Shown piece by piece: positions 3,613-50,027 of a stretch of 64,000 bases of DNA. The stretch comes from an uncultured Methylopila sp. (lineage in GTDB: Bacteria; Pseudomonadota; Alphaproteobacteria; Rhizobiales; Methylopilaceae): positions 1 through 64,000 of the forward strand of contig CABHPB010000027.1 in the NCBI GenBank assembly GCA_902168115.1, written 5' to 3'. Every line of letters begins with the position of its first letter. Positions within the stretch are counted from its first letter, which is position 1. The notes beneath the pieces were generated by a model. The model made no database searches and was not told the origin of the DNA. It saw nothing but the letters and a program-made list of their open reading frames with translations. The position numbers and the translations under genes were made by a program.

Positions 3613-3909
3613 TTGGCGAGCCGCGCGGAACCTAGCCGATGCGCCGCGGCGGGGCAATCGGGGCGATGGCGGCTTCGGCGCGCAGACTTCTCGCAAGCGG
3701 CCGCCATCCGGGGTCTCGTCCGGCGGAAACGCCCGCGTCGGAATTTCGGGACCGCGCGCCAAAAGTGTCGGCGGCGCGCGCCGGACGCCAGCGCGCGCTC
3801 CCGTAACGGATCTGTGAGCAGCCCACCCGGGTCGGGTGGCATGCCACTTGCTGGCCTCGACGGCGCAATCCTATCAGCGCCGCCGTCGAGGGCGGCCAAG
3901 CGAGGCAGC
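3613..3909. other. Intergenic stretch between tRNA-Arg and dctP
   Basis: About 300 bp with no credible gene. The long open frame that reads through from 3337 would overlap the tRNA and has no domain before the DctP signal peptide. The dctP promoter must lie here, but I see no clear -35/-10 pair. Confidence 0.5.
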
Positions 3910-4998
3910 ATGGATCGTCGTCAAATCTTGTCCGCGGGCGCGCTCGGCGCCGTCGCGTCCCTCGCAGCGCCCGCCGTGGCCCGCGCCCAGCAGTCCTTCT
4001 CCTGGAAGATGACCAACGCCTACGGCCCCGGCGCGCCGTTCTACGTCGCCGGCCCCGGCAGCCCGACATACTTCTGCGAGCTCGTGAAGCAGATGTCGGG
4101 CGGCCGTCTCACCATTCAGCACTTTGCCGCCGGCGAGCTCATCCCCGCGCTCGAGGGCTTCGACGCCTGCTCGGCGGGCACGGTCGAGATGAACGCCGCG
4201 AACTCCTATTTCTGGGCAGGAAAGGTTCCGGCCGCCCAGTTCTTCACCACCGTGCCCTTCGGGCTCAACTTCCAGGGGCAGAACGCGTGGATCTACCACG
4301 GCGGCGGGCTGCAGCTGTGGGAAGAACTCTACAAGCCGTTCAACCTCGTGCCCATGCCGATGGGCAACACCGGCGTGCAGATGACCGGCTGGTTCCGCAA
4401 GCCGATCGAGAAGCTCGAAGACTTCAAGGGCCTCAAGATGCGCATCCCGGGCCTCGCCGGAAAGGTCTATGCACAGCTCGGCGTCGACGTGAAGCTGCTG
4501 CCCGGCGGCGAGATCTTCCCGGCGCTGGAGCGCGGCGTCATCGACGCGGCCGAGTTCGTCGGCCCCTACCAAGACCGCCGCCTCGGCCTCCAGAAGGCGG
4601 CTAAGTACTACTACACGACCGGCTGGCACGAGCCGAACAACGTCACCGAGCTCGTCGTCAATCAGGCCGCCTGGGACTCGCTTCCCGACGACCTCAAGGC
4701 GATCGTCCGCGCGGCGGCGGCGGCGTGCAACACGATCAGCCACACCTGGTGCGAGGCGACCAACGCCGAGGCGCTCGACGACCTCGCTAGGAACCAGGGC
4801 GTGATCGCGGGACCGTTGCCGAAGGAGGTGGTCGAGGGCCTGAGGGCGACGACCAAGAAGACCCTCGACGGCCTCGCCGCCTCCGATCCGAAGATCAAGA
4901 AGGTCTACGACGCGTTCCTCGCCTTCAAGGACAAGCACGACAAGTGGGCCGGCGTCTCGGAGGCCGTGTTTCAGGACCAGATCCGCATCGGCGCCTGA
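3910..4998 (+). CDS. dctP: TRAP transporter solute-binding protein, DctP family (TakP-like)
   Basis: 362 residues. The ATG chosen starts a twin-arginine-like signal peptide ([20 protein letters not shown], cleavage after ARAQ). The mature protein ([69 protein letters not shown]) matches the DctP subfamily that includes the alpha-keto-acid binder TakP and the mannitol/chloroaromatic group; the conserved Arg of MRIPG normally salt-bridges the substrate carboxylate. It works in the periplasm, delivering a carboxylate to the DctQ-DctM permease encoded directly downstream. The exact substrate is not readable. Confidence 0.92.
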
Positions 4999-5004
4999 CC
5001 GGAC

Positions 5005-5547
5005 ATGCCCGAGCGCCTCGAAAAGACGGCACAGGCCCTCGACGCGATCGTCGAGGTTCTGGGCCGCGTCGCCGCATGGACGGGCCTTGCGCTCGTCCTC
5101 GTCATGGCGGGCAACGTCGTCGCCCGCTACCTCTTTCACGTCGGATCTGTCGCGACGCAGGAGCTCGAATGGCACCTGATGGCGCCGCTGACGCTCCTGT
5201 GCATCGCCTACGCCGTCAAGCATGACGGGCATGTCCGGGTGGACGTGTTCTATTCGCGCCTGCCGGTCGCGGCGCAGCGCGTCATCGACCTGTTCTCAGC
5301 GCTGGCGGCGCTCGCCCTGGCGATCCTGATCATCAAGATCTCGATCCCCTACGTGATGCAGTCCTACCGGATCGGCGAAGGCTCGCCCGATCCCGGCGGC
5401 CTGCCCTACCGCTTCGTCATCAAGGCCATGATCCCGGCGGGCTTCGCCCTGTTCGGGCTGCAGAGCCTCGCCTCGGTCCTGCGCGCGCTGAAGCCGTTCT
5501 TCGGCGGCCGCGACGGCCTCAAGACCGCGTCCATCAATGCCAGTTAA
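5005..5547 (+). CDS. dctQ: TRAP transporter small permease, DctQ
   Basis: 180 residues with four predicted membrane helices (about 23-45, 57-77, 92-114 and 136-158), the standard DctQ layout. The motif EWHLMAPLTLLCIAYAVKHD followed by GHVRVDVFYSRL is characteristic of the family. It starts 6 nt after the dctP stop and its last 11 nt overlap dctM, so the three genes form one operon with coupled translation. It partners DctM in the inner membrane and helps dock the binding protein. Confidence 0.93.
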   Translation: MPERLEKTAQALDAIVEVLGRVAAWTGLALVLVMAGNVVARYLFHVGSVATQELEWHLMAPLTLLCIAYAVKHDGHVRVDVFYSRLPVAAQRVIDLFSALAALALAILIIKISIPYVMQSYRIGEGSPDPGGLPYRFVIKAMIPAGFALFGLQSLASVLRALKPFFGGRDGLKTASINAS

Positions 5548-6862
5548 CGAAATCCTCGCGATCGCCTGCATCGCGTCCTTCTTCGTGCTCCTGTTCGTCG
5601 GCGTGCCCGTCGCGCTGACGCTCGCCATCTCCGGCTTCGTGTTCGGCTGGATCGGCTTCGGGACGGGCCTCTTCAACCTCCTGCCCGCGCGCATCTACGG
5701 CGTCACGGCGAACTACACGCTGATCGCCATCCCGCTGTTCGTCTTCATGGGTGTGATGCTCGAGAAATCGCGCATGGCCGACGAGCTGATGGAGGTGATC
5801 GGCTATCTGTCCGGCGGCCTGCGCGGCGGCATGGGGCTCGGCATCGTGCTGGTCGGCATGCTGATGGGCGCGACCACGGGCATCGTCGGCGCCACCATCG
5901 TCACGCTCGGCCTGCTGACCCTGCCGACGCTGCTGCGCCGCGGCTACGACAAGCAGCTGTCCTGCGGGGCGATCTGCGCGTCCGGGACGCTCGGCCAACT
6001 GATCCCACCGTCGACGATCCTGATCCTGCTCGCCGACATCATGGGCCAGTCAGTCGGCACGCTGTTCGCCGCGGCCGTTCTGCCCGGCCTGCTGCTGACC
6101 GGGATCCTCGGCGCCTACATCCTGATCGTCGGCGCGATCCGGCCTGAGATGGCCCCGCCGATCCCGCTCGCCGAGCGCCAGGCGCTCCCGAGGCGGGAGC
6201 TCATGATGAAGACGCTGAAGGTGGGCGTGCCGCCGATCGCGCTGGTGCTCGCCGTGCTGGGCTCGATCATCGGCGGCGTCGCCGCCCCGACCGAGGCCGC
6301 TTCGATGGGCGCGGTGGGCTCTATCGTCGTGGCCGCCATCGCGGGCCGCCTGACGTCGAAGACGCTGGTGGAGGTCGTCAACGCGACGGCCCGCATCACC
6401 GCCACGATGTTCTTCATCCTGATCTGCTCTCAGGTCTTCGCGCTCGCCTTCCGCGGGCTCGGCGGCGAGAAGCTCGTGCACGACGCCTTCGAACTTGTGC
6501 CGGGCGGGGCGACCGGCATGCTGATCTTCATGCTGGCCATCATTTTCGTGCTCGGCTTCTTCATCGAGTGGATCGAGATCAGCTACATCGTCGTGCCGAT
6601 GTTCCTGCCGCTGATGCTGGCCGACGGGGTCAACGTCGTCTGGGCGGCCTCTCTGATCGCGGTCGTCCTGCAGACCTCGTTCCTGACGCCGCCGTTCGGC
6701 TGGGCGCTGTTCTACCTGAGAGGCGTCGCGCCGCCGGAGGTCTCGACGCTCGACATCTACAAGGGCGTCGTCCCGTTCATCGCCCTGCAGCTGATCGCGC
6801 TGACGATCGTGTTCGCCTTCCCGGGGGTCGCCACCTGGCTCCCGACGGCGATCGGCTGGTGA
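5537..6862 (+). CDS. dctM: TRAP transporter large permease, DctM
   Basis: 441 residues, a polytopic inner-membrane protein with about 12 hydrophobic segments. Family landmarks include VGVPVALTLAISG near the N-terminus, GATTGIVGATIVTLG, GTLGQLIPPSTILILLAD and the C-terminal SFLTPPFGWALFYLRG. It uses a Na+ or proton gradient to import the substrate presented by DctP. The start overlaps the dctQ end by 11 nt. It converges with a small peptide gene on the other strand, with a hairpin between them. Confidence 0.95.
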   Translation: MPVNEILAIACIASFFVLLFVGVPVALTLAISGFVFGWIGFGTGLFNLLPARIYGVTANYTLIAIPLFVFMGVMLEKSRMADELMEVIGYLSGGLRGGMGLGIVLVGMLMGATTGIVGATIVTLGLLTLPTLLRRGYDKQLSCGAICASGTLGQLIPPSTILILLADIMGQSVGTLFAAAVLPGLLLTGILGAYILIVGAIRPEMAPPIPLAERQALPRRELMMKTLKVGVPPIALVLAVLGSIIGGVAAPTEAASMGAVGSIVVAAIAGRLTSKTLVEVVNATARITATMFFILICSQVFALAFRGLGGEKLVHDAFELVPGGATGMLIFMLAIIFVLGFFIEWIEISYIVVPMFLPLMLADGVNVVWAASLIAVVLQTSFLTPPFGWALFYLRGVAPPEVSTLDIYKGVVPFIALQLIALTIVFAFPGVATWLPTAIGW

Positions 6863-6893
6863 TGCGCGGCGCGTAGACCCGCGCCCAGCGAAT

Positions 6894-6918
6894 GCGGCGG
6901 GCGGAAACCGCCCGCCGC
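6894..6918. terminator. Hairpin between convergent dctM and the GG-peptide gene
   Basis: Perfect 11-bp stem GCGGCGGGCGG/CCGCCCGCCGC with a 3-nt loop, lying 31 bp after dctM and just downstream of the minus-strand peptide gene. There is no T-tract on either strand, so it may act as a bidirectional but weak or Rho-assisted terminator. Confidence 0.5.
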
Positions 6919-6931
6919 GAGCATGTCCGGC

Positions 6932-7141
6932 TTACGAAACGCCGCCCGAAACGTGCGGCAGAGCGCCCGTCACCGTGCCGAGCAGGCCGCCGACGAGACC
7001 GCCGACCTGGTCGACGACGCCGGACACCGCAGCGAGCTCGCTGCTGGCGTCGACTTCCAGACCGAGGCCGAGCGACAGGCCGCCGGCGACATCGTCAAGT
7101 TCAGCCGCGTTCAGCTCGCGGATCGTCTCAAATTTCGACAT
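6932..7141 (-). CDS. Double-glycine leader peptide, candidate bacteriocin/microcin precursor
   Basis: 69 residues. The first 21 form a classical double-glycine leader (MSKFETIRE then LNAAELDDVAGG, fitting the LxxxELxxVxGG consensus), which C39 peptidases cut after GG. The predicted 48-residue core starts LSLGLGLEVDASSEL and continues as a Gly/Val/Leu-rich, low-charge segment with GxxxG spacing (VVDQVGGLVGGLLGTVTGAL), like pore-forming class II bacteriocins. The start is fixed by the leader and by GGGAG upstream of ATG; a longer in-frame reading to 7252 adds no leader-like sequence. An HlyD adaptor and a C39-peptidase ABC exporter are divergently encoded 530 bp away and would cleave and export it. 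No immunity gene is evident. Target and activity are unknown. Confidence 0.8.
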   Translation of the reverse strand: MSKFETIRELNAAELDDVAGGLSLGLGLEVDASSELAAVSGVVDQVGGLVGGLLGTVTGALPHVSGGVS

Positions 7142-7674
7142 GTCGTCTTCTCCCTTGGGAAGGACGCGGCCATCGCGCCCAGCCAATGTTTGAAGAAGCG
7201 CCCGAACAGGCGCTCCGTTCTCGAAGGGAGCATCAAGGCCAGAACCTAGCAAGCCCGGAGCGAATTGTGGCAGAGCGTCCGATCATCTCCGTAAATGCTT
7301 CGATTCAGCCAAACATGGCGAGAATGTGATCTTCGGTTTTCGTTTACGTTTCAGACGGCTGGCGCGTTCGCCGATGCCGGTGATCGCATTTGCGGCGCCC
7401 AGGAACGCTCGCGAACCGGAACATCCCGCCAAAGCGCCGAGGCGCCGAAGCGCGGTTAGACATGGACGGCCCTTAGCCGCCTGTCTGCGACTCGCGGACG
7501 CAGCGGACCGCCCGGCGAATCACCAATCCACAGCCAGGGCGGGACGTTTCCTCCTAAACCTCTCGGATCAATGCGGAATTCGGAACGTCGTCCGAGGGCG
7601 CTCATTTTGGCCGCTTTCTCCGGGCTTGGAGAGCGCGCCAATCGGCCGGGCGAGGACGGCCGAAGGAACATTGC
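7142..7674. other. Divergent intergenic region of the GG-peptide export locus
   Basis: 533 bp between the minus-strand peptide gene and the plus-strand HlyD gene. It has a relatively AT-rich centre at about 7265-7350 (with CGTTTACGTTT-like runs) and probably holds both promoters. I find no convincing small gene; the open frames here have no leader, domain or Shine-Dalgarno support. An immunity peptide could be hidden here but I cannot support one. Confidence 0.5.
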
Positions 7675-9129
7675 ATGAGCGCTGAGGCGCAGCCCGCGGC
7701 CGCTTCCAGACCAGCAGCACCGACGCCGTCCGTCAGCGCAGGAGAGCAGACGGGAGAGAGGGCGGTCGCGCTCGCCGTGCGTCCGGCTCGACCGCCCTCC
7801 GCCCAGCTTCCCGCCCGCGCGCTCCCGCTGTTCCGGGCGGACGCGATCTCGGCCCGCGCCGACCAGTGGCTCGGCAAGACGCAGGCCGTGCAGCCCTGGC
7901 CGATGCGGGTCGTCGCCCCGGTCGGCGCGGCGCTCGCTCTCGCGCTGATCGCCTTCCTCGTCTTCGGCCAGTATACCCAGCGCGCCCGCGTGCAGGGGGT
8001 GCTCGCGCCGAGCGGCGGCCTGATCAAGCTCGCCGCCCCGCAGCAGGCGCGCATCCTCACCCTCAAGGTCGCCGACGGCGACCGCGTGACGAAGGGCCAG
8101 CCGCTCTACCTGCTCGACCTCGACCGCCAGACCGAGCTCGGCGGCGCCAGCGAGACGGTGCTGTCCGCGCTCAAGTCGCAGCGGGAGGAGCTTCAGAACG
8201 AGCTGCTGCGCCGCACCGTGGCGGACAAGGAGCGCCAGGAGGCGCTGAAGGTGAAGCTCTCCGACCTCGCGCGCGAGATCGCGCAGGTCGACCGGCAGGT
8301 CGCGGCCGGCGAGGACTATGTCCGGGTGCTGGAGGAGGAGCTCGACAGCTACAAGGACTATCTGAAGCGCGGCATCACCATCCAGCGCGACGTCGCCGAC
8401 CGCCGCGCCCGGATGATGACCGAGAAGACCCAGCTCGAGCAGCTGCGACGCGACCGCGTGCGGCTCGAAAGCGACGAGAACGCGTCCAAGGCCGAGATCA
8501 CCCAGATCGACCGCGAGAGCGGTTCGAAGCTCTCCGAGATCCGCCGGCAGATCGCCGAAGCCGACCGCACCATCGCCGAGACGGAGGCCCAGCGGCGGAT
8601 CGAGATCGTCACGCCGGAGTCCGGCCGCGTCACCGCGGTCGTCGCCCATGCCGGCCAGTCGGTGCCGAACGGCGCGCCGCTGCTGACCATCGTGCCTGAC
8701 AGCGGGACGCTCCAGGCGAACCTCTACGCGGAATCGAGCGCCATCGGCTTCGTGCGCGAGGGCGCGCAGGTCATGCTGCGCTACGCCGCCTTCCCTTACC
8801 AGAAGTTCGGGCAGCATCCCGGCGTCGTCACCGCGATCTCGCGCGCGGCGCTGAAGCAGGAGGAGGTCGACAACGGCGTGCCGATGCCGGCGGAGCTGCA
8901 GGGGCGCGGCGCGCTCTACCGCCTGACCGTGAAGCCGCAGGCCGCCGACATCACTGCCTATGGCAAGCGCGAGCAGCTGCAGCCCGGCATGCAGGTCGAG
9001 GCCGACATCTTCCTGGACTCCCGCCCGATCTGGCAGTGGATCCTCAACCCGCTCTACAGCCTCAAACCCCTCCATGGCGGGCCGAGGGACGACAGGGCCC
9101 CGAGCCCCGCGGCGGAGGGCAGCTGGTGA
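7675..9129 (+). CDS. HlyD-family periplasmic adaptor (CvaA-like) of the peptide exporter
   Basis: 484 residues. A Pro/Ala-rich cytoplasmic N-terminus is followed by one membrane helix at about 78-98 (VAPVGAALALALIAFLVFG), a first lipoyl half (VQGVLAPSGGLIKLAAPQQA), a long coiled coil (about 160-300, rich in Glu/Arg/Gln), the second lipoyl half (IVTPESGRVTAVVAHAGQSV) and a beta-barrel ending LQPGMQVEADIFLDSRP. This is the membrane-fusion protein of a type I secretion system in the CvaA/raxA style. The next gene, the C39 ABC exporter, begins inside its stop codon (GTGA), so the two are translationally coupled. No outer-membrane TolC gene lies nearby; a general TolC would be used. Confidence 0.9.
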   Translation: MSAEAQPAAASRPAAPTPSVSAGEQTGERAVALAVRPARPPSAQLPARALPLFRADAISARADQWLGKTQAVQPWPMRVVAPVGAALALALIAFLVFGQYTQRARVQGVLAPSGGLIKLAAPQQARILTLKVADGDRVTKGQPLYLLDLDRQTELGGASETVLSALKSQREELQNELLRRTVADKERQEALKVKLSDLAREIAQVDRQVAAGEDYVRVLEEELDSYKDYLKRGITIQRDVADRRARMMTEKTQLEQLRRDRVRLESDENASKAEITQIDRESGSKLSEIRRQIAEADRTIAETEAQRRIEIVTPESGRVTAVVAHAGQSVPNGAPLLTIVPDSGTLQANLYAESSAIGFVREGAQVMLRYAAFPYQKFGQHPGVVTAISRAALKQEEVDNGVPMPAELQGRGALYRLTVKPQAADITAYGKREQLQPGMQVEADIFLDSRPIWQWILNPLYSLKPLHGGPRDDRAPSPAAEGSW

Positions 9130-11276
9130 ACGCGACCATGTCAGCCGCGGCCCATGCCGCGCGCCCGCTCGTCGAGCGGCTGTCCTTCGGCTTTTCGCGC
9201 CCGAGGACGCCGACGATCCTTCAGACCGAGGCCGCCGAATGCGGGCTCGCCTGCCTCGCCATGGTGTCCGGCGCGCATGGCCGGCTGGTCGACCTCGCGA
9301 CCCTGCGGCGGCGCTTCTCGACCTCGCTCGGCGGGCTGACGCTCAAGCAGATGATCGGCATCGCCGGCCGGATGCAGCTCTCCGCGCGGGCGCTGCGGGT
9401 GGAGATGCCTTCGCTGCCCGAGCTCGCGACGCCTTGCGTGCTGCACTGGGGCTTCAACCATTTCGTCGTGCTGGAGAGCGTCGGCGCTCGCGCGGCGACG
9501 ATCCTCGATCCCGCGATCGGCCGGCGCACGCTGACGCTCGAGGAGATTTCCAGGACCTTCACCGGCGTCGCGCTGGAGCTGACCCCGACACGCGACTTCG
9601 CGCCGGCCGACGAACGCCAGACGATCCGCATCCTCGACCTGTTCCGCAACGTCGCGGGCCTGCCGCGGGCGATCGTGCAGCTGCTCGCGCTGTCGCTCGC
9701 CTTCGAGGTCTTCACGCTGGCGGTGCCGTTCGGCACGCAGATCATCATCGACCAGGCGATCGTGGCGGGCGACCACGACCTCGTGACGCTGGTCGCCCTC
9801 GGCCTCGGCCTGCTCGTCGTGCTGCAGACCGCGATGTGGGCGGCGCGCTCGTGGGGCATCATGGCGCTGTCGGCCGGGCTCAACGTGCAGTGGGCGAGCA
9901 GCCTGTTCTCGCACATGATCCGGCTGCCGCTCGACTATTTCGAGAAGCGCCACGTCGGCGACGTCACCTCGCGGTTCCGCTCGCTGGAGACCGTGCAGGA
10001 CACGCTGTCGACGACCTCCGTGCTGTCGGTGGTCGACGGGGTGATGGCGATCGGGCTCGTCGTGATGATGATCCTGTTCGGCGGCTGGCTCGCGCTCGTC
10101 GCGCTCGTCACCACGCTGATCTACGTCGCGATCCGGCTCGGCGCCTACGGGCCCTACCGTCAGGCGGCCGAGGAGACGATCGTCCAGTCGGCGCGCGAGA
10201 ACACGCATTTCCTCGAGACGCTGCGGGGCGCGACCACGGTGAAGCTGTTCGGCCTCGAGGAGCGGCGCACCTCGACCTGGCTGAATCTCCTGGTCGACCG
10301 CTTCAACGCCAAGCTCCACACCCAGAAGCTCGACGTGCTGTTCCAGTCGGCGACCAAGCTGCTGTTCGGGCTCGACCGGGTGCTGATCCTCTATCTCGGC
10401 GCGATCTCGGTGATCGACCGCTCGATCACGCTCGGCATGCTGATCGCCTTCCTCGCCTACAAGGACCAGTTCTCGACCCGCATCGAGAGCCTCGTCTCGG
10501 CCGGCTTCAAGATGCGCATGCTGAACCTGCAGGCCGAGCGTCTCGCCGACATCGCCCTGACCACCCGCGAGTTCGCCGCCGAACCGCTCGGCCCGTCCGC
10601 CGAGGCCGGCGCGACCGCGATCGCCATGAAGGACATCGGCTTCTCCTATGGCGACGGAGAGCAGTCGATCGTGCGCGACTTCAACCTCGACATCCGCCCC
10701 GGCGAGTGCGTCGCGCTGCTCGGCCCGTCCGGCTGCGGCAAGTCCACTCTGCTGAAGATGCTGTCCGGCCTGCTGCCGCCGACCTCGGGCTCGATCGAGA
10801 TCGACGGCGCGCCGCTCAACGAGCGTTCCATGGCGAGCTATCGCGAGCGCATCGGCTGCGTGCTGCAGGACGACCGGCTGTTCGCCGGCTCGATCGCCGA
10901 GAACATCGCCTGCTTCGATCCGGCCGTGGACCTCGCCTACGTCCGCCAGTGCGCGGCGGCGGCCGGCATCGACCAGGACGTGACGCGCATGGCGATGGGC
11001 TACGAGACGCTGGTCGGCGACATGGGCTCGACCCTGTCGGGCGGGCAGAAGCAGCGCATCTTCATCGCCCGCGCGCTCTACCGGCGACCGAAGCTGTTCC
11101 TGCTCGACGAGCCGACCAACCATCTCGACGAGCACGCGATCGACGTCGTGCTGTCAGTGCTGAAGCAGCTCCGGATGACCCGCGTCATCGTCACCCACAA
11201 CAGCCGGGTGGCGAGCGTCGCGGACCGGCAGATCCTGATGACGCTGCCCCAGCCGGGACGCCCGTCGACGGCATAA
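9126..11276 (+). CDS. Peptidase-C39 ABC exporter (bacteriocin processing and export)
   Basis: 716 residues from a GTG start that overlaps the HlyD stop by 4 nt and has GGAGG 7 nt upstream. The N-terminal C39 peptidase (about 25-150) has an intact active site: oxyanion Gln33 and Cys39 in QTEAAECGLACL, His112 in WGFNHFVVL and Asp128 in ILDPAIG. A six-helix ABC exporter domain follows (about 185-470), then a nucleotide-binding domain with Walker A GPSGCGKST (about 533), signature LSGGQKQR (about 636), Walker B LFLLDEP and H-loop VTHNSR. The protein should cut double-glycine leaders and pump the mature peptide out with its HlyD partner. The obvious substrate is the peptide encoded at 6932-7141. 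Confidence 0.94.
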   Translation: MNATMSAAAHAARPLVERLSFGFSRPRTPTILQTEAAECGLACLAMVSGAHGRLVDLATLRRRFSTSLGGLTLKQMIGIAGRMQLSARALRVEMPSLPELATPCVLHWGFNHFVVLESVGARAATILDPAIGRRTLTLEEISRTFTGVALELTPTRDFAPADERQTIRILDLFRNVAGLPRAIVQLLALSLAFEVFTLAVPFGTQIIIDQAIVAGDHDLVTLVALGLGLLVVLQTAMWAARSWGIMALSAGLNVQWASSLFSHMIRLPLDYFEKRHVGDVTSRFRSLETVQDTLSTTSVLSVVDGVMAIGLVVMMILFGGWLALVALVTTLIYVAIRLGAYGPYRQAAEETIVQSARENTHFLETLRGATTVKLFGLEERRTSTWLNLLVDRFNAKLHTQKLDVLFQSATKLLFGLDRVLILYLGAISVIDRSITLGMLIAFLAYKDQFSTRIESLVSAGFKMRMLNLQAERLADIALTTREFAAEPLGPSAEAGATAIAMKDIGFSYGDGEQSIVRDFNLDIRPGECVALLGPSGCGKSTLLKMLSGLLPPTSGSIEIDGAPLNERSMASYRERIGCVLQDDRLFAGSIAENIACFDPAVDLAYVRQCAAAAGIDQDVTRMAMGYETLVGDMGSTLSGGQKQRIFIARALYRRPKLFLLDEPTNHLDEHAIDVVLSVLKQLRMTRVIVTHNSRVASVADRQILMTLPQPGRPSTA

Positions 11277-11385: not shown

Positions 11386-12240
11386 ATGGCCACGATCAAG
11401 CTGATGCGACCGGACCGCCGCAAGGAGGCGAGCCTGTGGCTGAACACGTTCGCCCGCGAGGGCGCGTCTCAGTTCGGCGAGGCGGGCGTGATCGACGCGA
11501 TCTTCGAGCGCATCGGCGTGCGCAACAAATGGTGCGTCGAGTTCGGCGCCTGGGACGGCAAGACCTTCAGCAACACCTACGAGCTGATCACCCGCGACGG
11601 CTGGTCCTCGGTCCAGATCGAGGCCAACGTCGAGCGGTTCGCCGAGCTGAAGGCTCTGCACGCGTCCCGGCGCAACGTCGTCTGCCTGAACGAGTTCGTG
11701 GGCTTCGACCCGACCGTCGACTCGATCGAGTTCATGCTGCGCAAGGCGCGCTGCCCGCTCGATCTCGACTTCATCTCGATCGACATCGACGGCAACGACT
11801 ATCACATCTGGAATTCGATGCGGCGCTACCGGCCGCGGCTCGTCGTGATCGAGTTTAACAACGCGATCTCCGGCGACGTCCTCTACATCCAGGATCGCGA
11901 CCCGAACATCTTCCAGGGCTGCTCGCTGCGCGCCCTCGTGGAGCTTGGCAAGAGGCGCGGCTACGAGCTCGCGACCGTCATGCGCGGCAACGCCTTCTTC
12001 GTGCAGGCCGAGGACTTTCCGGCGCTCGGGATCGAGGACAACTCGGTCGACGCGATGTTCCTGTCGGCCCGCGACGCGCGCATGTTCCTGCTCTACGACG
12101 GCACGATCGCGAATGTCGGCCTGCCCGAGGTCTGGCTGCGCCAGGGGGACCCGAAGAAGCGCGCCATCGGGCCGCTCGACTTCCAGGTCTACTCCGAAGA
12201 GGAGCGCTTCTTCGGGGACATTCCTCCCAGGCCCGAGTGA
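11386..12240 (+). CDS. FkbM-like (Methyltransf_21-type) protein
   Basis: 284 residues. The motifs CVEFGAWDGKTFSNTY, then WSSVQIEA and LDFISIDIDGNDYHIWNSM, correspond to the SAM-binding glycine loop, the acidic ribose residue and a later conserved strand of FkbM-type methyltransferases, followed by RLVVIEFN. The subfamily is often found with surface polysaccharide or natural-product genes; the acceptor is unknown. It lies 110 bp after the C39 exporter and 143 bp before the repeat peptide, so it could belong to either cluster or stand alone. The glycine loop is degenerate compared with a canonical GxGxG, so activity needs testing. Confidence 0.6.
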   Translation: MATIKLMRPDRRKEASLWLNTFAREGASQFGEAGVIDAIFERIGVRNKWCVEFGAWDGKTFSNTYELITRDGWSSVQIEANVERFAELKALHASRRNVVCLNEFVGFDPTVDSIEFMLRKARCPLDLDFISIDIDGNDYHIWNSMRRYRPRLVVIEFNNAISGDVLYIQDRDPNIFQGCSLRALVELGKRRGYELATVMRGNAFFVQAEDFPALGIEDNSVDAMFLSARDARMFLLYDGTIANVGLPEVWLRQGDPKKRAIGPLDFQVYSEEERFFGDIPPRPE

Positions 12241-12382: not shown

Positions 12383-12676
12383 ATGAACCGGCAGGACATC
12401 GATTTCTCCCGTCTCATCGGCTTCGAGCAGGCCGCCGACGCCATCGACGGCGCGGTCGACTTCCGCGGCGACGCGATCGGCGCGCGTCTCGGCGCCAAGC
12501 GCGGCAACGAGCCGATCGCCCCGGCGGGCGTGCTGGACCGCTCCCGCCTCGTGGGCTTCGAGCAGACCAAGGACGCTTCGGGCGAGATCGACTTCCGCGA
12601 CGAGGATCTCGGTTCGCGCCTCGGCGCCAAGCGCGGCAACGAGCCCGCAGGCGCGGCCGAAGACAAGGCGTCCTGA
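12383..12676 (+). CDS. Small peptide with two tandem motif repeats, candidate RiPP precursor
   Basis: 97 residues, starting at an ATG preceded by AGGGGCG. It contains two copies of a roughly 40-residue unit. Each unit has a first motif, IDFSRLIGFEQ (6-16) or LDRSRLVGFEQ (51-61), and a second motif, IGARLGAKRGNEP (32-44) or LGSRLGAKRGNEP (76-88). There is no signal peptide, no Cys and no double-glycine leader. The same two motifs occur once in the 39-residue peptide at 48787-48906, and both peptides sit directly upstream of an HExxH enzyme of the peptide-modifying type. I infer a precursor with a recognition motif (LxGF) and a modified core (GAKRGNEP). It could instead be a small protein partner of the enzyme. 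Confidence 0.7.
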   Translation: MNRQDIDFSRLIGFEQAADAIDGAVDFRGDAIGARLGAKRGNEPIAPAGVLDRSRLVGFEQTKDASGEIDFRDEDLGSRLGAKRGNEPAGAAEDKAS

Positions 12677-12694
12677 CGCGCCTCGGCCAGGCGC

Positions 12695-12720
12695 GGGCGC
12701 CGGCGCTTCGCCGGCGTCCC
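12695..12720 (+). terminator. GC-rich hairpin between peptide and hydroxylase genes
   Basis: Arms GGGCGCCGGCG and CGCCGGCGTCCC pair with one bulged T around a CTT loop, 19 bp after the peptide stop. There is no T-tract. By position it matches the terminator between peptide and enzyme at the 48.9-kb locus and could tune peptide-to-enzyme ratio. Confidence 0.4.
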
Positions 12721-12723
12721 CCG

Positions 12724-12765
12724 GCATGGCGCGGTCGGCATAGCGAAGTCCGCATGGCGAAGTCT
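12724..12765 (+). repeat. Three tandem 14-bp repeats abutting a start codon
   Basis: Units GCATGGCGCGGTCG, GCATAGCGAAGTCC and GCATGGCGAAGTCT follow head to tail, and a fourth partial unit (GCATGACAGC) supplies the ATG of the HExxH gene at 12768. The array therefore forms the translation initiation region of that gene and could vary by slippage. Confidence 0.75.
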
Positions 12766-12767
12766 GC

Positions 12768-13772
12768 ATGACAGCGCCCTCACCCATCTCGCTTCTTCCC
12801 GACGCGGCGCGCGCCGCATCCCGGGATGCGGCGTGGCGCGCGCGGCTGGTCGTATCGTTCGACTATCTCGCCGAAGTCCTCGCCGCGCGCGGGATCGCCG
12901 CCGATCGGCTCCTCGACGCCCGGTCGAAGGCCGCGGACGGCCCGGTCTCGCCGTGGGTCTCCTGTCTCTATTCGCTGCTCGTCGCCGAGATCAGCCGCGC
13001 CGAGGGCGCAAATCCCGGCGAGGCCGTCGCGGCGCTCGCCGAGGCGGCGGCGCGGCCGGCGCGCGAGACGGCGCCGGCGCCGCTCGACGACGCGGGCATT
13101 TCGCCGGTCTGGCGCGCCCAGTTTCTCCGCCTGATCGACACGGATCGGGAACTGCCGTTCCGCCCGGTCGCGCCCTCGCCCGCCGACGCGGAACGATGCG
13201 TCGGCGAGATCGCGGCCGCGCTCGACCTGCTCGACCGCGCTGATCCTCTCTTCCGGGCCGAGCTCGACGAACTGCTGCGCGTCGTCGTGCTCGGCGCGCC
13301 CGAGACGGCCGATTCGAGGGACGATTTCGGCGCCTGCTCGACCTTCTTCATGCGCGAACTGGTCCTCATCAACGCCGCGCGGCGGCGGAGCCCGGTTCGC
13401 ATGATCGACACGCTCGTCCACGAGGCGAGCCATGTCCTCCTGTTCGGCCTCGCGCTCGATCAGCCGCTGACGACCGACAAGGGCGAGGCGCGGATCAGGT
13501 CCGCGGCGCGCGACGATCCGAGGCCGCTCGAGGGCGTGTTTCACGCCGCCTTCGTGATGGCGCGCGTGCACCTCGCCATGACGCGCATGATCGCGAGCGG
13601 ACGCCTCACGCCGGCGGAGGCCGGGGAGGCCGCTGAGCGGCGCGACCGGAACGGTGAGGTCGCCCGGGACGCGCTCGCCGCCGTCGCCGGTCACGCTTCG
13701 CTCACGCCGCTCGGCGCGAAAATCGTCGAGGCGCTCGGCGACTACCTGGCGCCGCTGCCCGCCGCGGCATGA
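12768..13772 (+). CDS. alphaKG-HExxH-type peptide hydroxylase candidate (copy 1)
   Basis: 334 residues, no signal peptide, mostly helical. The key motif is LVHEASHVLLFGLALDQPL: HEASH at 218-222 (HExxH), followed about 35 residues on by DDPRPLEGVFHAAFVMAR with a likely third metal ligand, His259. This pair (HExxH then RPxxGxxHxxFV) is the signature of the family catalogued as 'HEXXH motif-containing putative peptide modification protein', members of which are described as alpha-ketoglutarate-dependent peptide beta-hydroxylases rather than proteases. It follows a candidate precursor by 91 bp and overlaps the ACP gene by 4 nt (ATGA). A second homologue is encoded at 48987-50027. The residue it hydroxylates is unknown. 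Confidence 0.78.
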   Translation: MTAPSPISLLPDAARAASRDAAWRARLVVSFDYLAEVLAARGIAADRLLDARSKAADGPVSPWVSCLYSLLVAEISRAEGANPGEAVAALAEAAARPARETAPAPLDDAGISPVWRAQFLRLIDTDRELPFRPVAPSPADAERCVGEIAAALDLLDRADPLFRAELDELLRVVVLGAPETADSRDDFGACSTFFMRELVLINAARRRSPVRMIDTLVHEASHVLLFGLALDQPLTTDKGEARIRSAARDDPRPLEGVFHAAFVMARVHLAMTRMIASGRLTPAEAGEAAERRDRNGEVARDALAAVAGHASLTPLGAKIVEALGDYLAPLPAAA

Positions 13773-14044
13773 GCGCGGCGATCCTCCAGACCCCGCGTGC
13801 CCTCGTCGCCGCCGCGGTCCGGGCGGGGCGGTTCGGCGCGCCGCTCGACCCGGCTCTCGCCCGCGACATCGACGAAGGCGCCGAGCTCGCGCTGGACTCC
13901 CTCGGCCTCGACAGTCTCGGCTGGATGGAGTTCTGCATCTCGATCGAGCTCGACAGCGGACTGGAGCTCGCCCCGAGCATGGTCGCGGAGATGACCACGC
14001 TCTCCGACGTCGAGCGCTGGATCGCGGCGCGCCTGACGGGATGA
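13769..14044 (+). CDS. Acyl carrier protein
   Basis: 91 residues, acidic and helical. LGLDSLGWMEFCISIELDSG carries the phosphopantetheine attachment motif DSL, with Ser49 the expected site; a preceding copy of the same letters (LALDSLGLDSL) makes Ser44 a less likely alternative. The C-terminus TTLSDVERWIAARL matches ACP helix IV. It overlaps both the HExxH gene (ATGA at 13769) and the next gene (ATGA at 14041). A stand-alone ACP between a peptide hydroxylase and an adenylating ligase suggests it carries an acyl group activated by that ligase. Confidence 0.88.
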   Translation: MSAAILQTPRALVAAAVRAGRFGAPLDPALARDIDEGAELALDSLGLDSLGWMEFCISIELDSGLELAPSMVAEMTTLSDVERWIAARLTG

Positions 14045-14856
14045 TCGACTATCTGGCCAAGGCGCGGCGGTGCCGGACGGAAAACCAGTTCAACCGGCTC
14101 CACATCGAACTCGACGCCACGCTGGCCCCGTCCGAGATCGCCGCGATCCGCGAGGTCTCGAAGGGGCAGGACTTTCCCGAGGCCGGCAGGGCGTGGCTCG
14201 GGGTTCTGGAGGCGCATTCCCCGGCCCTGTCCTCGGCGCCCGAGCCGTTCAGCCGGATCGAGCTCCACCCGAACGTCCTGCTCTATCGCGGCGCGTCACC
14301 CGAACGGCGCACGCGCCTGCTCCTCGCCTTCACCGGCGTCGCCCGGCGACTGATGATCCCGACATCGGCCTTCCTGCAGTCCCTCGACGCAGGGCTGTGG
14401 GACGTCTGTCTCGTGAGGCATCGCGGCTCGTTCCTCGACGGCGCCGAGGGCGTGGCGGAGGATCTCGACGGGCTGCTCGCCTTCCTCAAGCGGCGGATCG
14501 GGTTCCGGCGCTACCGCGCCGTCTCCGTATTCGGCGTCAGCAGCGGCGGCGGTCCGGCGGCGGTGGCGGCGCTGCGCATCGGCGCGCGGCGCGGGATGTC
14601 GATGTGCGGCGCGTCCGGCGAGCGGCTGCTGCAGGCGTCGGTGCGGCCCTACTTCTGGCCGGCCCTGCGACGGCGCAGGCCCGAGCTTCGCTTCGTCCAC
14701 GGCGCCGGCAACGTCATCGATCGCGACGCGGCGGCGGCGATGGCGGGCGCGTGGGGCGGGACGATGCTCGCGGTCGACGGCGTGAAGAGCCACAATGTCA
14801 TGGGCTCGCTGATGAAGCGCGGGCTCCTGAAGGATTTTCTCGCGGAGACGCTGTGA
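14041..14856 (+). CDS. Alpha/beta-hydrolase-like protein, possible acyltransferase or thioesterase
   Basis: 271 residues. The centre has a nucleophile elbow in AVSVFGVSSGGGPAAVAAL: G165-V-S167-S-G169 fits GxSxG with Ser167 as nucleophile. The C-terminal part offers an acid (GAGNVIDRD) and a His (GVKSHNVMG), completing a plausible triad. There is no signal peptide. It is coupled by 4-nt overlaps to the ACP gene before it and the ligase gene after it, so its substrate is probably the acyl-ACP. It may transfer that acyl group to the hydroxylated peptide or release it; the choice is inference. Similarity to any named family is weak by eye. Confidence 0.6.
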   Translation: MIDYLAKARRCRTENQFNRLHIELDATLAPSEIAAIREVSKGQDFPEAGRAWLGVLEAHSPALSSAPEPFSRIELHPNVLLYRGASPERRTRLLLAFTGVARRLMIPTSAFLQSLDAGLWDVCLVRHRGSFLDGAEGVAEDLDGLLAFLKRRIGFRRYRAVSVFGVSSGGGPAAVAALRIGARRGMSMCGASGERLLQASVRPYFWPALRRRRPELRFVHGAGNVIDRDAAAAMAGAWGGTMLAVDGVKSHNVMGSLMKRGLLKDFLAETL

Positions 14857-16292
14857 GCGCGCCGGATCCGATCGCGATCGCCGCCCGGCTCGCGGCGCAT
14901 GCGCGGGCCGGCGGAGACGCGCTGCGCGCCGAGGACCGCCGGACGAGCTTCGGCGAGCTCGCGGAACGGTCCGAGCGCATCGCGGGCGTCGTCCTGCAGG
15001 AGGGATGGGCGCCGGGCGATGTGGTGGGCGTCGCGATCGGCGACGAGGCGCTGCATTTCGCGGCCGCCGTCGCGCTGCTCGCCCTCGCCGCCCCGCAGGT
15101 CTGCCTGCCGGCGCACGAGACGGACGCGAGCAACAGCCGCACGACGACGCTGCTGGGCGTGGCGCTCGTCCTGACGGACAGGCCGCTCGGCTGGGCCGAG
15201 GGCGTCAGGACCATCGGACTGACGCCGGAGGCGCTCGCCGCGGCGCCGCTCGGCGGCTTCGCCCGCGCCGTCGAGCCCGGGCGGGACGCGCCGGCCGTCT
15301 ATGTGAAGACCTCCGGCTCGACCAGCGCGCCAAAACTGTTCGCGCTGTCCTTCGCGCGCCTTCTCGACGGCGCGGCGCGGTGCGCGACCGACCCCGCGGC
15401 CCACTGCGTCATGCGCATGGCGTCGATGGAGTTCGACTCGACGCGGCTGCAGCGCCTGTTCGCGGCGATCGCGGGACTGCCGACGGCCGTCGCGCCCCGG
15501 AACATGGCGGAGCTCGGCCGGGTCTGCGCGCGTCTCGACGTCACTCAGGTCCATATGGGCGCCTATCAGCTCGCCTCGCTGATGCGGGCCGACCGCGCGC
15601 CGGATCCGCTCCCGGACGGCACGAGCCTTCTCAGCGGCGGATCGCGTGTGCCGGGGCCGCTGCGGGCGGAGGTCGCGGCGCGGCTGACGCCGGCGCTGTT
15701 CGTCTCCTACGCCACAAGCGAGGTCGGCCCGATCTCGATGGCGACGCCCGACGAGCACGAGGCCTGGCCGGAAGGGGTGGGCCGGCCGCGGCCGGACGCC
15801 GTCGTCGAGGTCGTCGACGAGACCGGCGTAGCTGTGGATCGAGGCCAAGTCGGCGAGATTCGGGTGCGGCGGCCGGCCGCCCCGCGCGCCTATGTCGGCG
15901 AGCCGTCCGGCCAGTTCCGCGACGGGTGGTTCTATCCCCGCGACCTCGTCTCGTGGCCGGCGGACGGACCGCTCGTCCATCACGGCCGCGCCGACGACGT
16001 CATGCTGCTGAACGGCGTGAAGATTTCCGGAGACGCGATCGAGGACGCGCTGACGGCGCATCCCGCCGTCCGCGAGGCGGCGGCCTATCCCGTCCGCTCG
16101 CGCCTCCATGGCGAGATCCCGGCCGCGGCCGTCACGATCCGGGCGCAGGGCGAGACGCCCGACGCGGCCGCCCTGCTCGCCCATTGCCGCGCGATCCTCG
16201 GCCTGCGCGCGCCGCGGCGGATCGTGATCCTCGACGAGATCCCGCGCACGGCGACCGGCAAGCCGATCCGCAGGCAGCTCTCCGAGCTCTAG
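14853..16292 (+). CDS. Adenylate-forming acyl-CoA/acyl-ACP ligase
   Basis: 479 residues from a GTG that overlaps the previous stop (GTGA). ANL-superfamily core motifs are present in order: P-loop-like VKTSGSTSAPK (about 150), SYATSEVGPISM (the Y-x-T-E region, here YATSE), GWFYPRDLVSW (Asp for ribose binding), HHGRADDVMLLNGVKISGDA (hinge) and the C-terminal catalytic Lys in RTATGKPIRRQLSEL. It should activate a carboxylic acid as the acyl-adenylate and load it on a thiol. Being in one operon with an ACP, that ACP is the likely acceptor. The TSGSTSAPK loop lacks the usual Gly before the Pro-Lys pair, a mild divergence. The acid is unknown (aryl or fatty). Confidence 0.85.
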   Translation: MSAPDPIAIAARLAAHARAGGDALRAEDRRTSFGELAERSERIAGVVLQEGWAPGDVVGVAIGDEALHFAAAVALLALAAPQVCLPAHETDASNSRTTTLLGVALVLTDRPLGWAEGVRTIGLTPEALAAAPLGGFARAVEPGRDAPAVYVKTSGSTSAPKLFALSFARLLDGAARCATDPAAHCVMRMASMEFDSTRLQRLFAAIAGLPTAVAPRNMAELGRVCARLDVTQVHMGAYQLASLMRADRAPDPLPDGTSLLSGGSRVPGPLRAEVAARLTPALFVSYATSEVGPISMATPDEHEAWPEGVGRPRPDAVVEVVDETGVAVDRGQVGEIRVRRPAAPRAYVGEPSGQFRDGWFYPRDLVSWPADGPLVHHGRADDVMLLNGVKISGDAIEDALTAHPAVREAAAYPVRSRLHGEIPAAAVTIRAQGETPDAAALLAHCRAILGLRAPRRIVILDEIPRTATGKPIRRQLSEL

Positions 16293-47702: not shown

Positions 47703-48665
47703 TTACGCGCTCCAGCGGCTGCGCACCCCTTCCCCGTCGTTCCGGTGCTGCCGGATGAGGACGGGATCGGAGATCTCGATGGCCCGCCTGCCCTCTGGCG
47801 TGTCAATGGCGTTCAGCGCCGCGACGTATCGGCCCAGGAACAGGTTGAAGGACTCCAGCCGTCGCGGAAAATCGTGCTGCACGATCATGCCGACAGTCGG
47901 GTTCGTGTTGATCTCGTAGATCTCGACCTTGCCCCGGACGATGCCGAAGTCGGCTCGGCCATAGTGGATGCGGGCGATCTCGAACGCGCGCGAGAGCACG
48001 GCCTGATGGGGGTTCGAGGAGATCAGGGCGTATTCGTCGTCGTAAACCTGCGCGCCGGCGGCGCCGAGCGTTCCGCTCTTCGCGGCCCAGCCGTTCTCGT
48101 GGACCGAAACGGTCGGAACGATCTGGCCCCCGATATTGAAGGCCGCAAGCTTCCGGTAGAGGTTCGGCGCGAGCTCCTCGGCCGCATACTGTACGATCAT
48201 GATCTCGTGGATCGGGACGCCCGACCGGTTGAGGGCTCGCACGCCCTCGGTCACGGCGGTCTGGTCATGGAGGAGATCGCTGGCGACGCCGCGATGCATC
48301 GAGGCGGTCCTGAGGAAGACCGGGAAGGAGGTCTCCGGGACGCGCTGGGCGCCCCGCCAGACCTGGAAGCTGTTCAGGCCGTGGTGATGCAGCGCCCTCA
48401 GCATGTCGAACCGCTGCTTGACGCTGGCGCCGTCGTTGAGCACGCGCGCGCCGCCTTTTTTCAGCGCGCGGTAGAGACGGGCCGACAGCTCGCAGTCCCA
48501 CGGGCTCAGCCGGTCGAAATCGCCGAAGACGTACGTCGCGCGCGGAAACGACTTTTCGGAGAACGCCCGGTCATACGACCACAGCTCGATCTTCGGCGCG
48601 CCCTCGAGCGCGGGAACGCCGCCGTGCGTCTTGAGCTTGCTGGGATGCAGAAAGAATATGATCAT
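47703..48665 (-). CDS. ATP-grasp-like protein next to a peptide-modification locus
   Basis: 320 residues. The C-terminal half has features of an ATP-grasp fold: HEIMIVQYAAEEL, YGRADFGIVRGKVEIYEINT and NPTVGM, where Glu and Asn of EINTNPT would bind Mg-ATP. The N-terminal part (ELWSYDRAF, ATYVFGDFDRLSPWDCELS) resembles a pre-ATP-grasp domain. It is divergent from the small peptide gene at 48787, with 121 bp between. ATP-grasp ligases make peptide or ester bonds in several RiPP systems, so a role on that peptide is plausible but unproven. A glutathione-synthetase-like activity is the alternative. Confidence 0.6.
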   Translation of the reverse strand: MIIFFLHPSKLKTHGGVPALEGAPKIELWSYDRAFSEKSFPRATYVFGDFDRLSPWDCELSARLYRALKKGGARVLNDGASVKQRFDMLRALHHHGLNSFQVWRGAQRVPETSFPVFLRTASMHRGVASDLLHDQTAVTEGVRALNRSGVPIHEIMIVQYAAEELAPNLYRKLAAFNIGGQIVPTVSVHENGWAAKSGTLGAAGAQVYDDEYALISSNPHQAVLSRAFEIARIHYGRADFGIVRGKVEIYEINTNPTVGMIVQHDFPRRLESFNLFLGRYVAALNAIDTPEGRRAIEISDPVLIRQHRNDGEGVRSRWSA

Positions 48666-48786
48666 CGCTAAGTAATTGATGCGGCAAAGCGTCTTGCGAT
48701 GCCGCGCCCCGATTCAGCGCCGCCCGCATGGTTGACCGATGGCGTCTCTACAGCAAGGATGCCGGGGTTATCGCAAGGGGTTTCGC
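48666..48786. promoter_or_regulatory. Divergent promoter region of the second peptide locus
   Basis: 121 bp between the minus-strand ATP-grasp-like gene and the plus-strand peptide. AAGGGG lies 6 nt before the peptide ATG. A TTGACC hexamer near 48732 could be a -35, but no good -10 is spaced from it. Confidence 0.35.
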
Positions 48787-48906
48787 ATGCAAGCAGTTGA
48801 ACTCGACGTCCGGAAGTTGCTCGGATTCAAGCTGGTCGAGACGGCGGGGTCCGTCGCGATCGGCGCCAAGGTCGGCGTGAAGCCGCCGGCGCCTGCCGTC
48901 CGCTGA
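48787..48906 (+). CDS. 39-residue peptide, candidate RiPP precursor (single motif pair)
   Basis: Start ATG with AAGGGG 6 nt upstream. The sequence contains LDVRKLLGFKL (6-16) and AIGAKVGVKPPAP (24-36). These match, in order and spacing type, the two motifs repeated in the 97-residue peptide at 12383 (LDxxRLxGF and IGARLGAK). No Cys, no signal peptide, no double-glycine. A Rho-independent terminator follows within 40 bp, then the HExxH enzyme gene. The arrangement (precursor, partial terminator, modifying enzyme) is common in RiPP clusters, where it gives excess precursor. Its conserved motif pair makes it a convincing gene despite the small size. Confidence 0.72.
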   Translation: MQAVELDVRKLLGFKLVETAGSVAIGAKVGVKPPAPAVR

Positions 48907-48942
48907 GCGTTTCCGACGGGTCGGCCTGAAACCGGTCTGGCT

Positions 48943-48970: not shown

Positions 48971-48986
48971 CGTTTTCGGAGAGACC

Positions 48987-50027
48987 ATGTCGGAACGCCT
49001 CGAGGCGGCTGCCGTCGACGACTCAGGCTGCCTGCCCGACCCCGCGCGCGCCCGGCGCCTGAACCGCCTGATGCGGTCGGCGCTCGGCGACAGCATCGGA
49101 TATGTCTGCGGCGAGATCGCCGGCCGCCTCGCTTTCGACGCCGCCGGCGTCGGCGCGGTGGCGGACGGGCTGAGGGCGGGCCGCAGCTTCGGCTTTCCGG
49201 CGTTCCTGCACTACTACGACCTCGTTCCGGCGCTGACCGAGAGCCGGTCGGAGGCCGCGCGCGACGCGCTCGCCGCCATCGCGGCGCTCGAGCCGCGCGA
49301 GGCCGGCCTCGAGGTCGCATCGATCGGCGGCGGCGCCCTGGCCCCGCTCGCCGCCCGCATTCGCGGGGCGCTCGACACCGACCCGGAGGTCAGCTTCGGC
49401 TTCCGCGACGTCGGCGACGACGTCGTCGAGCAGTTCCGCGACCGCCTCGCGCAGGCGATGTCGCTGCTCCGGCGGGCGACGCCGGCGCTCGCCGAAGAAC
49501 TCGACGAACTGGTGGAGACCCTGATCCTCGCACGCGGCGAGCCGGGCGCTCCGCTGCAGTTCGACGGCGCGTCGGCCTATCGGCTCTGGGGCGTGCTGGT
49601 GCTGAACGCGGACTTCCACCAGACGCCGGTCCAGCTGGCCGAGGCGATCGCGCATGAGAGCGGGCACCTCATCCTGTTCGGGCTGACGACGGAACAGCCG
49701 CTGACCTTCAACGACCCGGCCGAGACCTTCGCCTCGCCGTTGCGACAGGACGCCCGGCCGATGGACGGCATCGTCCATGCGACCTTCGTGTCGGCGAGGA
49801 TGCACTGGGCGATGACCGAGCTCGCCGCCTCCGGCGCTTTGGACGCGCAGGAGAGCGCGGCCGCGGAGGCCGCGGCCCGCGAGGACGCGGCGAACTTCCG
49901 CCGGGGATACGAGATCATCACGCGCCACGCCAAGCTCAGCCCTGTCGGGCGAGCCGCGATGGAGGCCTGCACGGCCTACATGGCCAGGGCCCGCGTCGAA
50001 GAGGGTGTGCAGTTCGACGGCGGCTGA
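48987..50027 (+). CDS. alphaKG-HExxH-type peptide hydroxylase candidate (copy 2)
   Basis: 346 residues, mostly helical, no signal peptide. HESGH at 223-227 (in AIAHESGHLILFGLTTEQPL) is the HExxH motif; LRQDARPMDGIVHATFVSAR follows, with His264 the likely third metal ligand. It shares the HExxH-LLFGL-xxQPLT and RPxxGxxHxxFV blocks with the enzyme at 12768, so they are paralogues of the same peptide-modifying family. GGAGAG precedes the ATG. Its partner peptide is encoded just upstream. Unlike copy 1, no ACP or ligase is next to it. Confidence 0.78.
   Translation: MSERLEAAAVDDSGCLPDPARARRLNRLMRSALGDSIGYVCGEIAGRLAFDAAGVGAVADGLRAGRSFGFPAFLHYYDLVPALTESRSEAARDALAAIAALEPREAGLEVASIGGGALAPLAARIRGALDTDPEVSFGFRDVGDDVVEQFRDRLAQAMSLLRRATPALAEELDELVETLILARGEPGAPLQFDGASAYRLWGVLVLNADFHQTPVQLAEAIAHESGHLILFGLTTEQPLTFNDPAETFASPLRQDARPMDGIVHATFVSARMHWAMTELAASGALDAQESAAAEAAAREDAANFRRGYEIITRHAKLSPVGRAAMEACTAYMARARVEEGVQFDGG

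Follow-up and report, generated by a model that had tools for sequence, protein, structure and literature searches.

A putative RiPP-like operon in Methylopila that joins a repeat precursor peptide and an HExxH hydroxylase homologue to an adenylate ligase, a carrier protein and a hydrolase-fold protein

The window analyzed here is a 64,000-nucleotide stretch of DNA from an uncultured Methylopila sp. (contig CABHPB010000027.1). It contains an operon of five genes that we read, at a probability of about one in two, as a pathway resembling those of ribosomally synthesized and post-translationally modified peptides (RiPPs), in which an HExxH enzyme would hydroxylate the core of a precursor peptide and a ligase, an acyl carrier protein (ACP) and a hydrolase-fold protein would conjugate an acyl or aminoacyl group to it. 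An original prediction from the letters alone had described five adjacent plus-strand genes at 12383-16292, with the peptide gene ending 91 bp before the HExxH gene and 4-nt overlaps (ATGA, ATGA, GTGA) at the other joins, and this layout proved exact:

12383..12676, plus strand: precursor peptide, 97 amino acids, two leader-core units (residues 6-44 and 51-88)
12768..13772, plus strand: homologue of alpha-ketoglutarate (alphaKG)-HExxH-type peptide beta-hydroxylases, 334 amino acids, by TIGR04267 and model fold
13769..14044, plus strand: acyl/peptidyl carrier protein (ACP), 91 amino acids, PF00550 E 1.1e-6, DSLG serine motif
14041..14856, plus strand: alpha/beta-hydrolase-fold protein, 271 amino acids, triad S167-D227-H251, proposed acyltransferase or thioesterase
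14853..16292, plus strand: stand-alone adenylate-forming ligase, 479 amino acids, GTG start, PF00501 and PF13193

The family assignments of the original prediction also held up where they were checked. The ligase matches PF00501 (E 6.7e-28) and PF13193 (E 9.6e-15) in Pfam, and sequence and model both place the HExxH protein in the predicted family of peptide-modifying alphaKG hydroxylases. It matches TIGR04267 at E 1.8e-25 (89.9 bits against a curated cut-off of 40), has the RPxxGxxH motif downstream of its HExxH motif, and its AlphaFold2 model (pLDDT 93.2) matches the HExxH domain of ChlB (PDB 8s5f) with TM scores of 0.61-0.70 over four chains. The two motifs are as follows:

13419..13433, plus strand: HEASH metal-binding motif, residues 218-222; H218, E219 and H222 invariant in 27 of 27 aligned proteins
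13521..13544, plus strand: RPLEGVFH motif, residues 252-259; R252, P253, G256 and H259 invariant in 27 of 27

The likeness to ChlB-type HExxH hydroxylases thus extends to fold, motif and family score. Unlike ChlB, the window protein stands alone, with no radical SAM match in Pfam and NCBIfam scans; its identity to 8s5f is 17-18% in structural alignment, and its precursor belongs to a different family. In RiPP pathways, such enzymes carry out beta-hydroxylation of His, Asp, Phe, Gln and Pro residues, according to PMC13060819 and PMC12636437.

The precursor of the operon is built from two similar units:

12398..12430, plus strand: unit 1 leader motif, IDFSRLIGFEQ
12482..12514, plus strand: unit 1 core motif, ARLGAKRGNEP (lysine K39)
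12533..12565, plus strand: unit 2 leader-like motif, LDRSRLVGFEQ
12614..12646, plus strand: unit 2 core motif, SRLGAKRGNEP (lysine K83)

Aligned with each other, the two halves score 127, and none of 1000 shuffles exceeds 50. For the corresponding peptide of a same-genus genome (locus G235), the alignment score is 120 and the best of 2000 shuffles reaches 54; the two precursors are homologous. The score with the peptide of a second HExxH cluster in the window is 52 against a shuffled maximum of 48, which is weak as a single comparison; the precursor has the family's LDxSKLLGF and KxG pattern.

To place this pair more broadly, we scanned 84,980 species genomes once with an alignment of three HExxH proteins, which gave 79 loci; with the two window loci and G235, these make up a set of 82. 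Small open reading frames (ORFs) near the HExxH genes have a common leader, LDxSKLLGF(K/D/R/E), and their cores are made up of K-x-G motifs (GAKIG, GSKVG and GVKPG, for example). A hidden Markov model (HMM) of the leader, built from 20 leader stretches with the peptide of the second window cluster among its seeds, has 35 matches at E < 0.2 among 14,470 small ORFs of the 82 loci. All 35 contain KxG (751 of 6033 other ORFs of 45-120 amino acids do so), and 33 are encoded on the same strand as HExxH and no more than about 1 kb upstream of its match, a position held by 589 of the 14,470 overall; 19 of the 35 include a seed, so the enrichment is circular for those. Among the 16 seed-free matches, KxG occurs in 16 and the upstream position in 15. 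Altogether a peptide was recognized at 48 of the 82 loci, a count that takes in weak HMM matches (up to E 8 and no further than 4.5 kb away) as well as peptides identified by their motif or on visual inspection. Glycine stands at +2 of 127 of 221 core lysines, and the K-x-G lysine is a core feature in nearly all peptides. At six further loci (L157, L161-L165), a short upstream peptide of the family type was seen by eye in every case, none of which the leader HMM picked up at E < 2; three of the six have an ATP-grasp-like gene nearby. Six Rhodobacteraceae loci (L071, L089, L091, L092, L096, L097) have their peptides downstream, and after these were found we partly withdrew the idea that the adenylate-ligase loci of this family have no peptide. 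A precursor gene with a conserved leader beside a modifying enzyme, the mark of a RiPP pathway, is therefore present in the window and recurs well beyond it. The precursor family is widespread and apparently undescribed.

In Bauldia, leader-bearing precursors and a Hint_2 domain are joined in one protein (Pfam E 4.1e-38, 9e-39 and 3.6e-38), with GAKVG in L024, and the fusion suggests that self-processing may free the core there. The two L024 precursors stand outside the count of 48:

L024, 10130-10840, minus strand: Hint_2-fused precursor
L024, 10837-11616, minus strand: Hint_2-fused precursor
L026, 9443-10297, minus strand: Hint_2-fused precursor

Ligases recur beside the HExxH genes in three types. 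Within 6.5 kb of the HExxH gene, exactly one type was found in 65 of the 82 loci: an ATP-grasp-like protein (mostly of about 320 amino acids) in 31, an adenylate ligase, with or without a carrier protein, in 22 and a cyanophycin-synthetase-like (CphA-like) protein in 12. Two types occur together in two loci (L033, L047) and none in 15, of which some lie on short contigs, and the adenylate ligase is present in 24 loci in all. Both CphA-like members that were tested, L025 and L052, are clear cases (PRK14016 E 4.5e-75 and 6.1e-74), with scores below the NCBIfam cut-off for true cyanophycin synthetases. The peptide core covaries with the ligase: K-x-G..E/D..P occurs at 12 of 14 adenylate-ligase loci with a peptide, compared with 4 of 26 peptide-bearing loci of the ATP-grasp-like or CphA-like types (Fisher p 2e-5). 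When the adenylate-ligase label is mapped onto a tree of 80 HExxH proteins, five changes are needed, at least four of them forced by starred branches, so this pairing has been gained or lost repeatedly. The carrier is a separate protein in the window and in Rhodobacteraceae and is fused to the ligase in L041, L050, L060 and L083. ATP-grasp-like and CphA-like loci with a leader-bearing peptide, other than L028 and L033, have no carrier-protein match within 6.5 kb. The original prediction had named two outcomes that would speak against it, absence of the peptide beside close homologues of the enzyme and a merely chance association of ACP and ligase; both were looked for and neither was obtained, given the peptides at 48 loci and the adenylate ligases at 24.

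At the A4 position, the window ligase reads FDST, that of G235 FDSS and that of L027 HDNH. We take the aspartate to bind the alpha-amine in amino-acid adenylation domains; it is present in only 4 of 24 aligned ligases (window, G235a, L027 and L033, the last reading HHD), and so an amino acid as the ligase substrate is a guess.

The second cluster in the window, which the original prediction did not include, shows the ATP-grasp-like arrangement:

47703..48665, minus strand: ATP-grasp-like protein, divergently encoded; E251-I-N and N255-P of an EINTNP motif invariant in 16 aligned sequences
48787..48906, plus strand: precursor peptide MQAVELDVRKLLGFKLVETAGSVAIGAKVGVKPPAPAVR, 39 amino acids, K-x-G; leader HMM E 2.3e-6 (itself an HMM seed)
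48987..50027, plus strand: HExxH enzyme, TIGR04267 E 9.8e-27, one of two TIGR04267 matches in the whole genome

The ligase-like protein of this cluster (47703-50027) has no profile match of its own, and its relatives have weak ones: D-Ala-D-Ala-ligase matches occur in 4 of 16 family members (best E 0.005) and, in Pfam, in 3 of 16 (best E 0.038). Profile comparison of the family of about 320 amino acids with the PDB gave nothing at E values of 10 or less, and hhalign gives a probability of 0.7% for its relation to a CphA-like protein. We call it ATP-grasp-like, and not ATP-grasp, because the label comes mainly from EINTNP, which we take to be an ATP-grasp motif.

Together with those of G235 and a Planktomarina metagenome-assembled genome (L027, on a long branch), the HExxH protein of the operon makes up a single starred clade whose neighbors are Bauldia L024 and L026; in these two neighbors, none of the three ligase types was found within 6.5 kb in the available DNA. 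The window, G235 and L027 genomes each have the peptide, HExxH enzyme, ligase, ACP and hydrolase. In L027, all lie in one stretch, in an order unlike that of the window: ACP, hydrolase (convergent), peptide, HExxH and ligase. G235 splits the set. One site has the peptide (one leader and three LGAK(V/I)G repeats), the HExxH enzyme (52% identity) and the ligase (56%); the ACP and hydrolase (67%) lie about 1.7 Mb away beside a substrate-binding-protein gene, and the same gene follows the window operon. What stands of the predicted pathway unit is an HExxH enzyme paired with a dedicated precursor and repeatedly linked to adenylate ligase and carrier; the five-gene order is not general. At other adenylate-ligase loci, a thioesterase-like protein or domain takes the place of the window-type hydrolase.

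The hydrolase-like protein has no match to any Pfam or NCBIfam model, or by sequence to the PDB, at E up to 1, so its kinship is by fold only. Its AlphaFold2 model (pLDDT 88.6) resembles alpha/beta-hydrolase esterases (best Foldseek E 6.4e-8 against the PDB), with TM scores to the query of 0.40-0.56 among the 50 matches listed; the matches include both acylaminoacyl peptidases and esterases. The triad residues S167, D227 and H251 are the same in all 10 sequences aligned. At 14 of the 18 loci where the hydrolase was found outside the window, an ACP adjoins it (L129 being ambiguous), which points to a thioester substrate. Fused ligases L041 and L060 also carry a thioesterase domain (PF00975), from which the 230-amino-acid Rhodobacteraceae proteins take their thioesterase label: the L095 protein has no Pfam or NCBIfam match, and an HMM of these proteins matches the fused ones. 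That the window hydrolase is a distant form of them was unsupported (hhalign probability 2%).

From these observations we propose the following pathway. The leader IDFSRLIGFEQ (consensus LDxSKLLGF) would recruit the alphaKG/Fe HExxH enzyme, which would beta-hydroxylate at least one core residue, with the conserved KxG lysine or one of its neighbors as the likeliest site. The adenylate ligase may activate a carboxylic acid, perhaps an amino acid, and load it onto the phosphopantetheine arm of the ACP, from which the Ser-Asp-His hydrolase-fold protein would move it to the peptide, either to the amine of the KxG lysine or to the new hydroxyl. In the sister clusters, including the second one of the window, an ATP-grasp-like or cyanophycin-synthetase-like ligase might perform the same conjugation with no carrier. 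A lysine-centered modification appears likeliest because the K-x-G lysine is common to nearly all cores, and the interchange of three carboxylate-activating systems argues for acid conjugation as the second step. At ATP-grasp-like and CphA-like loci, 13 of 28 peptides have no acidic side chain from three residues before the first KxG onward (L040, with no KxG in its core, was left out), so that the carboxylate activated there is more likely to be that of an outside acid or of the C-terminus.

Several points weigh against this pathway, whose chemistry is read from sequences and models. The core pattern that covaries with ligase type was defined after the data had been seen, the loci are related, and some of the 14 adenylate-ligase peptides were recovered by additional searching that covered the adenylate-ligase loci alone. 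The 22 adenylate-ligase loci include eight at which no peptide came to light (L046, L064, L068, L075, L076, L088, L094, L095). Outside the window, hydrolase loci include a P450-like protein in 7 of 18 cases and an adenylate ligase in 4 of 18, and an HExxH gene was found in none of the 18 stretches. Among the 49 HExxH genomes searched, just 4 yielded the window-type hydrolase (P0004, E <= 1e-5), a count that missed a more distant hydrolase in L033. In Stella, the ACP-hydrolase pair adjoins a ligase 38% identical to that of the window, with no peptide seen there, and an HExxH gene with a K-x-G peptide lies at a separate locus (L032).

The main rival is oxidation on the carrier, since P450-like proteins or ligases accompany ACP-hydrolase pairs at loci that have no HExxH gene: the ligase would load an amino acid onto the ACP, the HExxH enzyme would hydroxylate it there and the hydrolase would release it, with the peptide separate or a later acceptor. 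Such pairs and trios are modules in their own right, which is the chief support for this explanation, and the combination of P450-like protein, ACP and hydrolase, the A4 aspartate of the window, G235 and L027 ligases and the loci with no peptide found agree with it. We nevertheless consider it unlikely, as HExxH enzymes have leader-bearing peptides at ATP-grasp-like and CphA-like loci, where carrier matches are confined to L028 and L033, the core motif varies with ligase type, and the A4 aspartate is rare among the aligned ligases. It is less probable again that the HExxH enzyme hydroxylates or cleaves the peptide while the hydrolase edits as a thioesterase or frees the core as a peptidase and the ligase and ACP make an unrelated acyl product. 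HExxH enzymes are also capable of backbone cleavage, which PflC and PosC combine oxidatively with hydroxylation in the part of PMC12636437 that describes them, a point that also counts against our pathway, and the peptidases and esterases among the Foldseek matches would fit; against this explanation stand the ACP adjoining most hydrolases and the 45 of 49 HExxH genomes in which the hydrolase was not found. Least probable is that the peptide-HExxH pair and the ACP-hydrolase-ligase trio share a transcript by chance, as the distant ACP-hydrolase pair of G235 with its shared downstream gene and the Stella trio in a stretch with no HExxH gene might suggest, since the G235 ligase stays with HExxH and not with the ACP, L027 joins all five parts in a different order, adenylate ligases recur beside HExxH in several lineages, and the hydrolase and window-type HExxH protein occur together in 2 of 13 same-genus genomes and are both missing from the other 11 (E 1e-6), although a looser profile gave weak HExxH matches in 2 of these 11.

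The complete gene set matches none of the families with which we compared it. NikP1, NikQ and NikP2, an adenylation-peptidyl carrier protein, a P450 and a thioesterase that make beta-hydroxy amino acids, share the adenylation, carrier, oxygenase and hydrolase functions, all of which have counterparts in the window; their substrate is a carrier-bound amino acid and they use no precursor peptide, whereas the window has a conserved one. In graspetides, an ATP-grasp ligase acts on a ribosomal peptide. The likeness is limited to the sister clusters, where the ligase is only ATP-grasp-like and the 13 of 28 peptides free of acidic side chains from near the first KxG onward set them apart; no ATP-grasp-like match lies within 6.5 kb of the first HExxH gene of the window. 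Lipolanthines, goadvionins, selidamides and nostolysamides likewise carry an acyl group on a ribosomal peptide, but they are lanthipeptide- or proteusin-like, with acylation linked to GNAT or polyketide synthase/fatty acid synthase enzymes, and we know of no acyl-conjugated RiPP with an HExxH enzyme and a separate adenylate ligase, ACP and alpha/beta hydrolase. For nostolysamides, PMC13060382 mentions acyl groups on Lys side chains. The pfl and pos clusters (PMC12636437) and the nitrilobacillin pes cluster with PesO (PMC13060819) resemble ours in having an HExxH enzyme with a dedicated precursor, and beta-hydroxylation has been demonstrated there. As described there, pfl differs in its NHLP-like precursor, GNAT and MNIO-nitroreductase fusion (PMC12636437), and pes in its R(V/T)DN precursors, MNIO and Asn-synthetase-like enzyme (PMC13060819); these passages on pfl and pes name no carrier protein, adenylate ligase or ATP-grasp. 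The claim that no described RiPP class combines these parts agrees with our search of the open-licence PubMed Central literature, which yielded no apparent description of this precursor family, nor of HExxH enzymes combined with these ligases.

Taking all loci together, we tentatively suggest that they represent a new and widespread class of RiPPs, marked by an LDxSKLLGF-like leader, KxG cores and HExxH hydroxylation followed by acid conjugation through three interchangeable ATP-dependent systems. In its adenylate type, a ligase-carrier-hydrolase set like that of nonribosomal peptide synthetases would pass a thioester-bound acyl or aminoacyl group to a ribosomal peptide. If so, activation and thioester carriage in the nonribosomal style would serve to decorate a ribosomal product, and three ATP-dependent activation systems would have been swapped onto one hydroxylase-precursor pair. 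Such loci would offer a natural test bed for combining RiPP and thiotemplate enzymes, and their short lysine-repeat peptides should suit expression and assay.

Among the ACP-hydrolase loci elsewhere, the trios with a P450-like protein (L019-L023, L110, L126) could represent an oxygenase-carrier module with no HExxH enzyme. The L033 oxygenase is a P450 by its match to PF00067; the four other P450-like proteins tested have no Pfam match, but one of them, that of L019, aligns with it at E 2e-8. All five share an invariant F-G-x-G-x3-C-L-G, the heme-ligand pattern, and beyond L033 we label these oxygenases P450-like only. In L033 (Bauldia litoralis, 3709-10318), the hydrolase, adenylate ligase, P450, ATP-grasp-like gene, K-x-G peptide, HExxH gene and ACP lie together, a stretch that may merge the oxygenase-carrier and HExxH-peptide modules. 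Neither the HExxH protein nor the hydrolase had a match when searched against plasmids.

Upstream of the operon, the window contains a C39 peptidase ABC exporter (9036-11276), a candidate for leader removal, which we left out of the proposed pathway because the G235 peptide locus has no match to it. Between exporter and peptide gene, at 11386-12240, is a weak FkbM-like methyltransferase match (PF05050 E 0.013, below the cut-off). A bacteriocin-like peptide with a double-glycine leader (6932-7144, minus strand; Bacteriocin_IIc E 3.4e-4, below the cut-off) adjoins genes for an HlyD protein and the exporter (7675-11276, plus strand) and may be the exporter's substrate.

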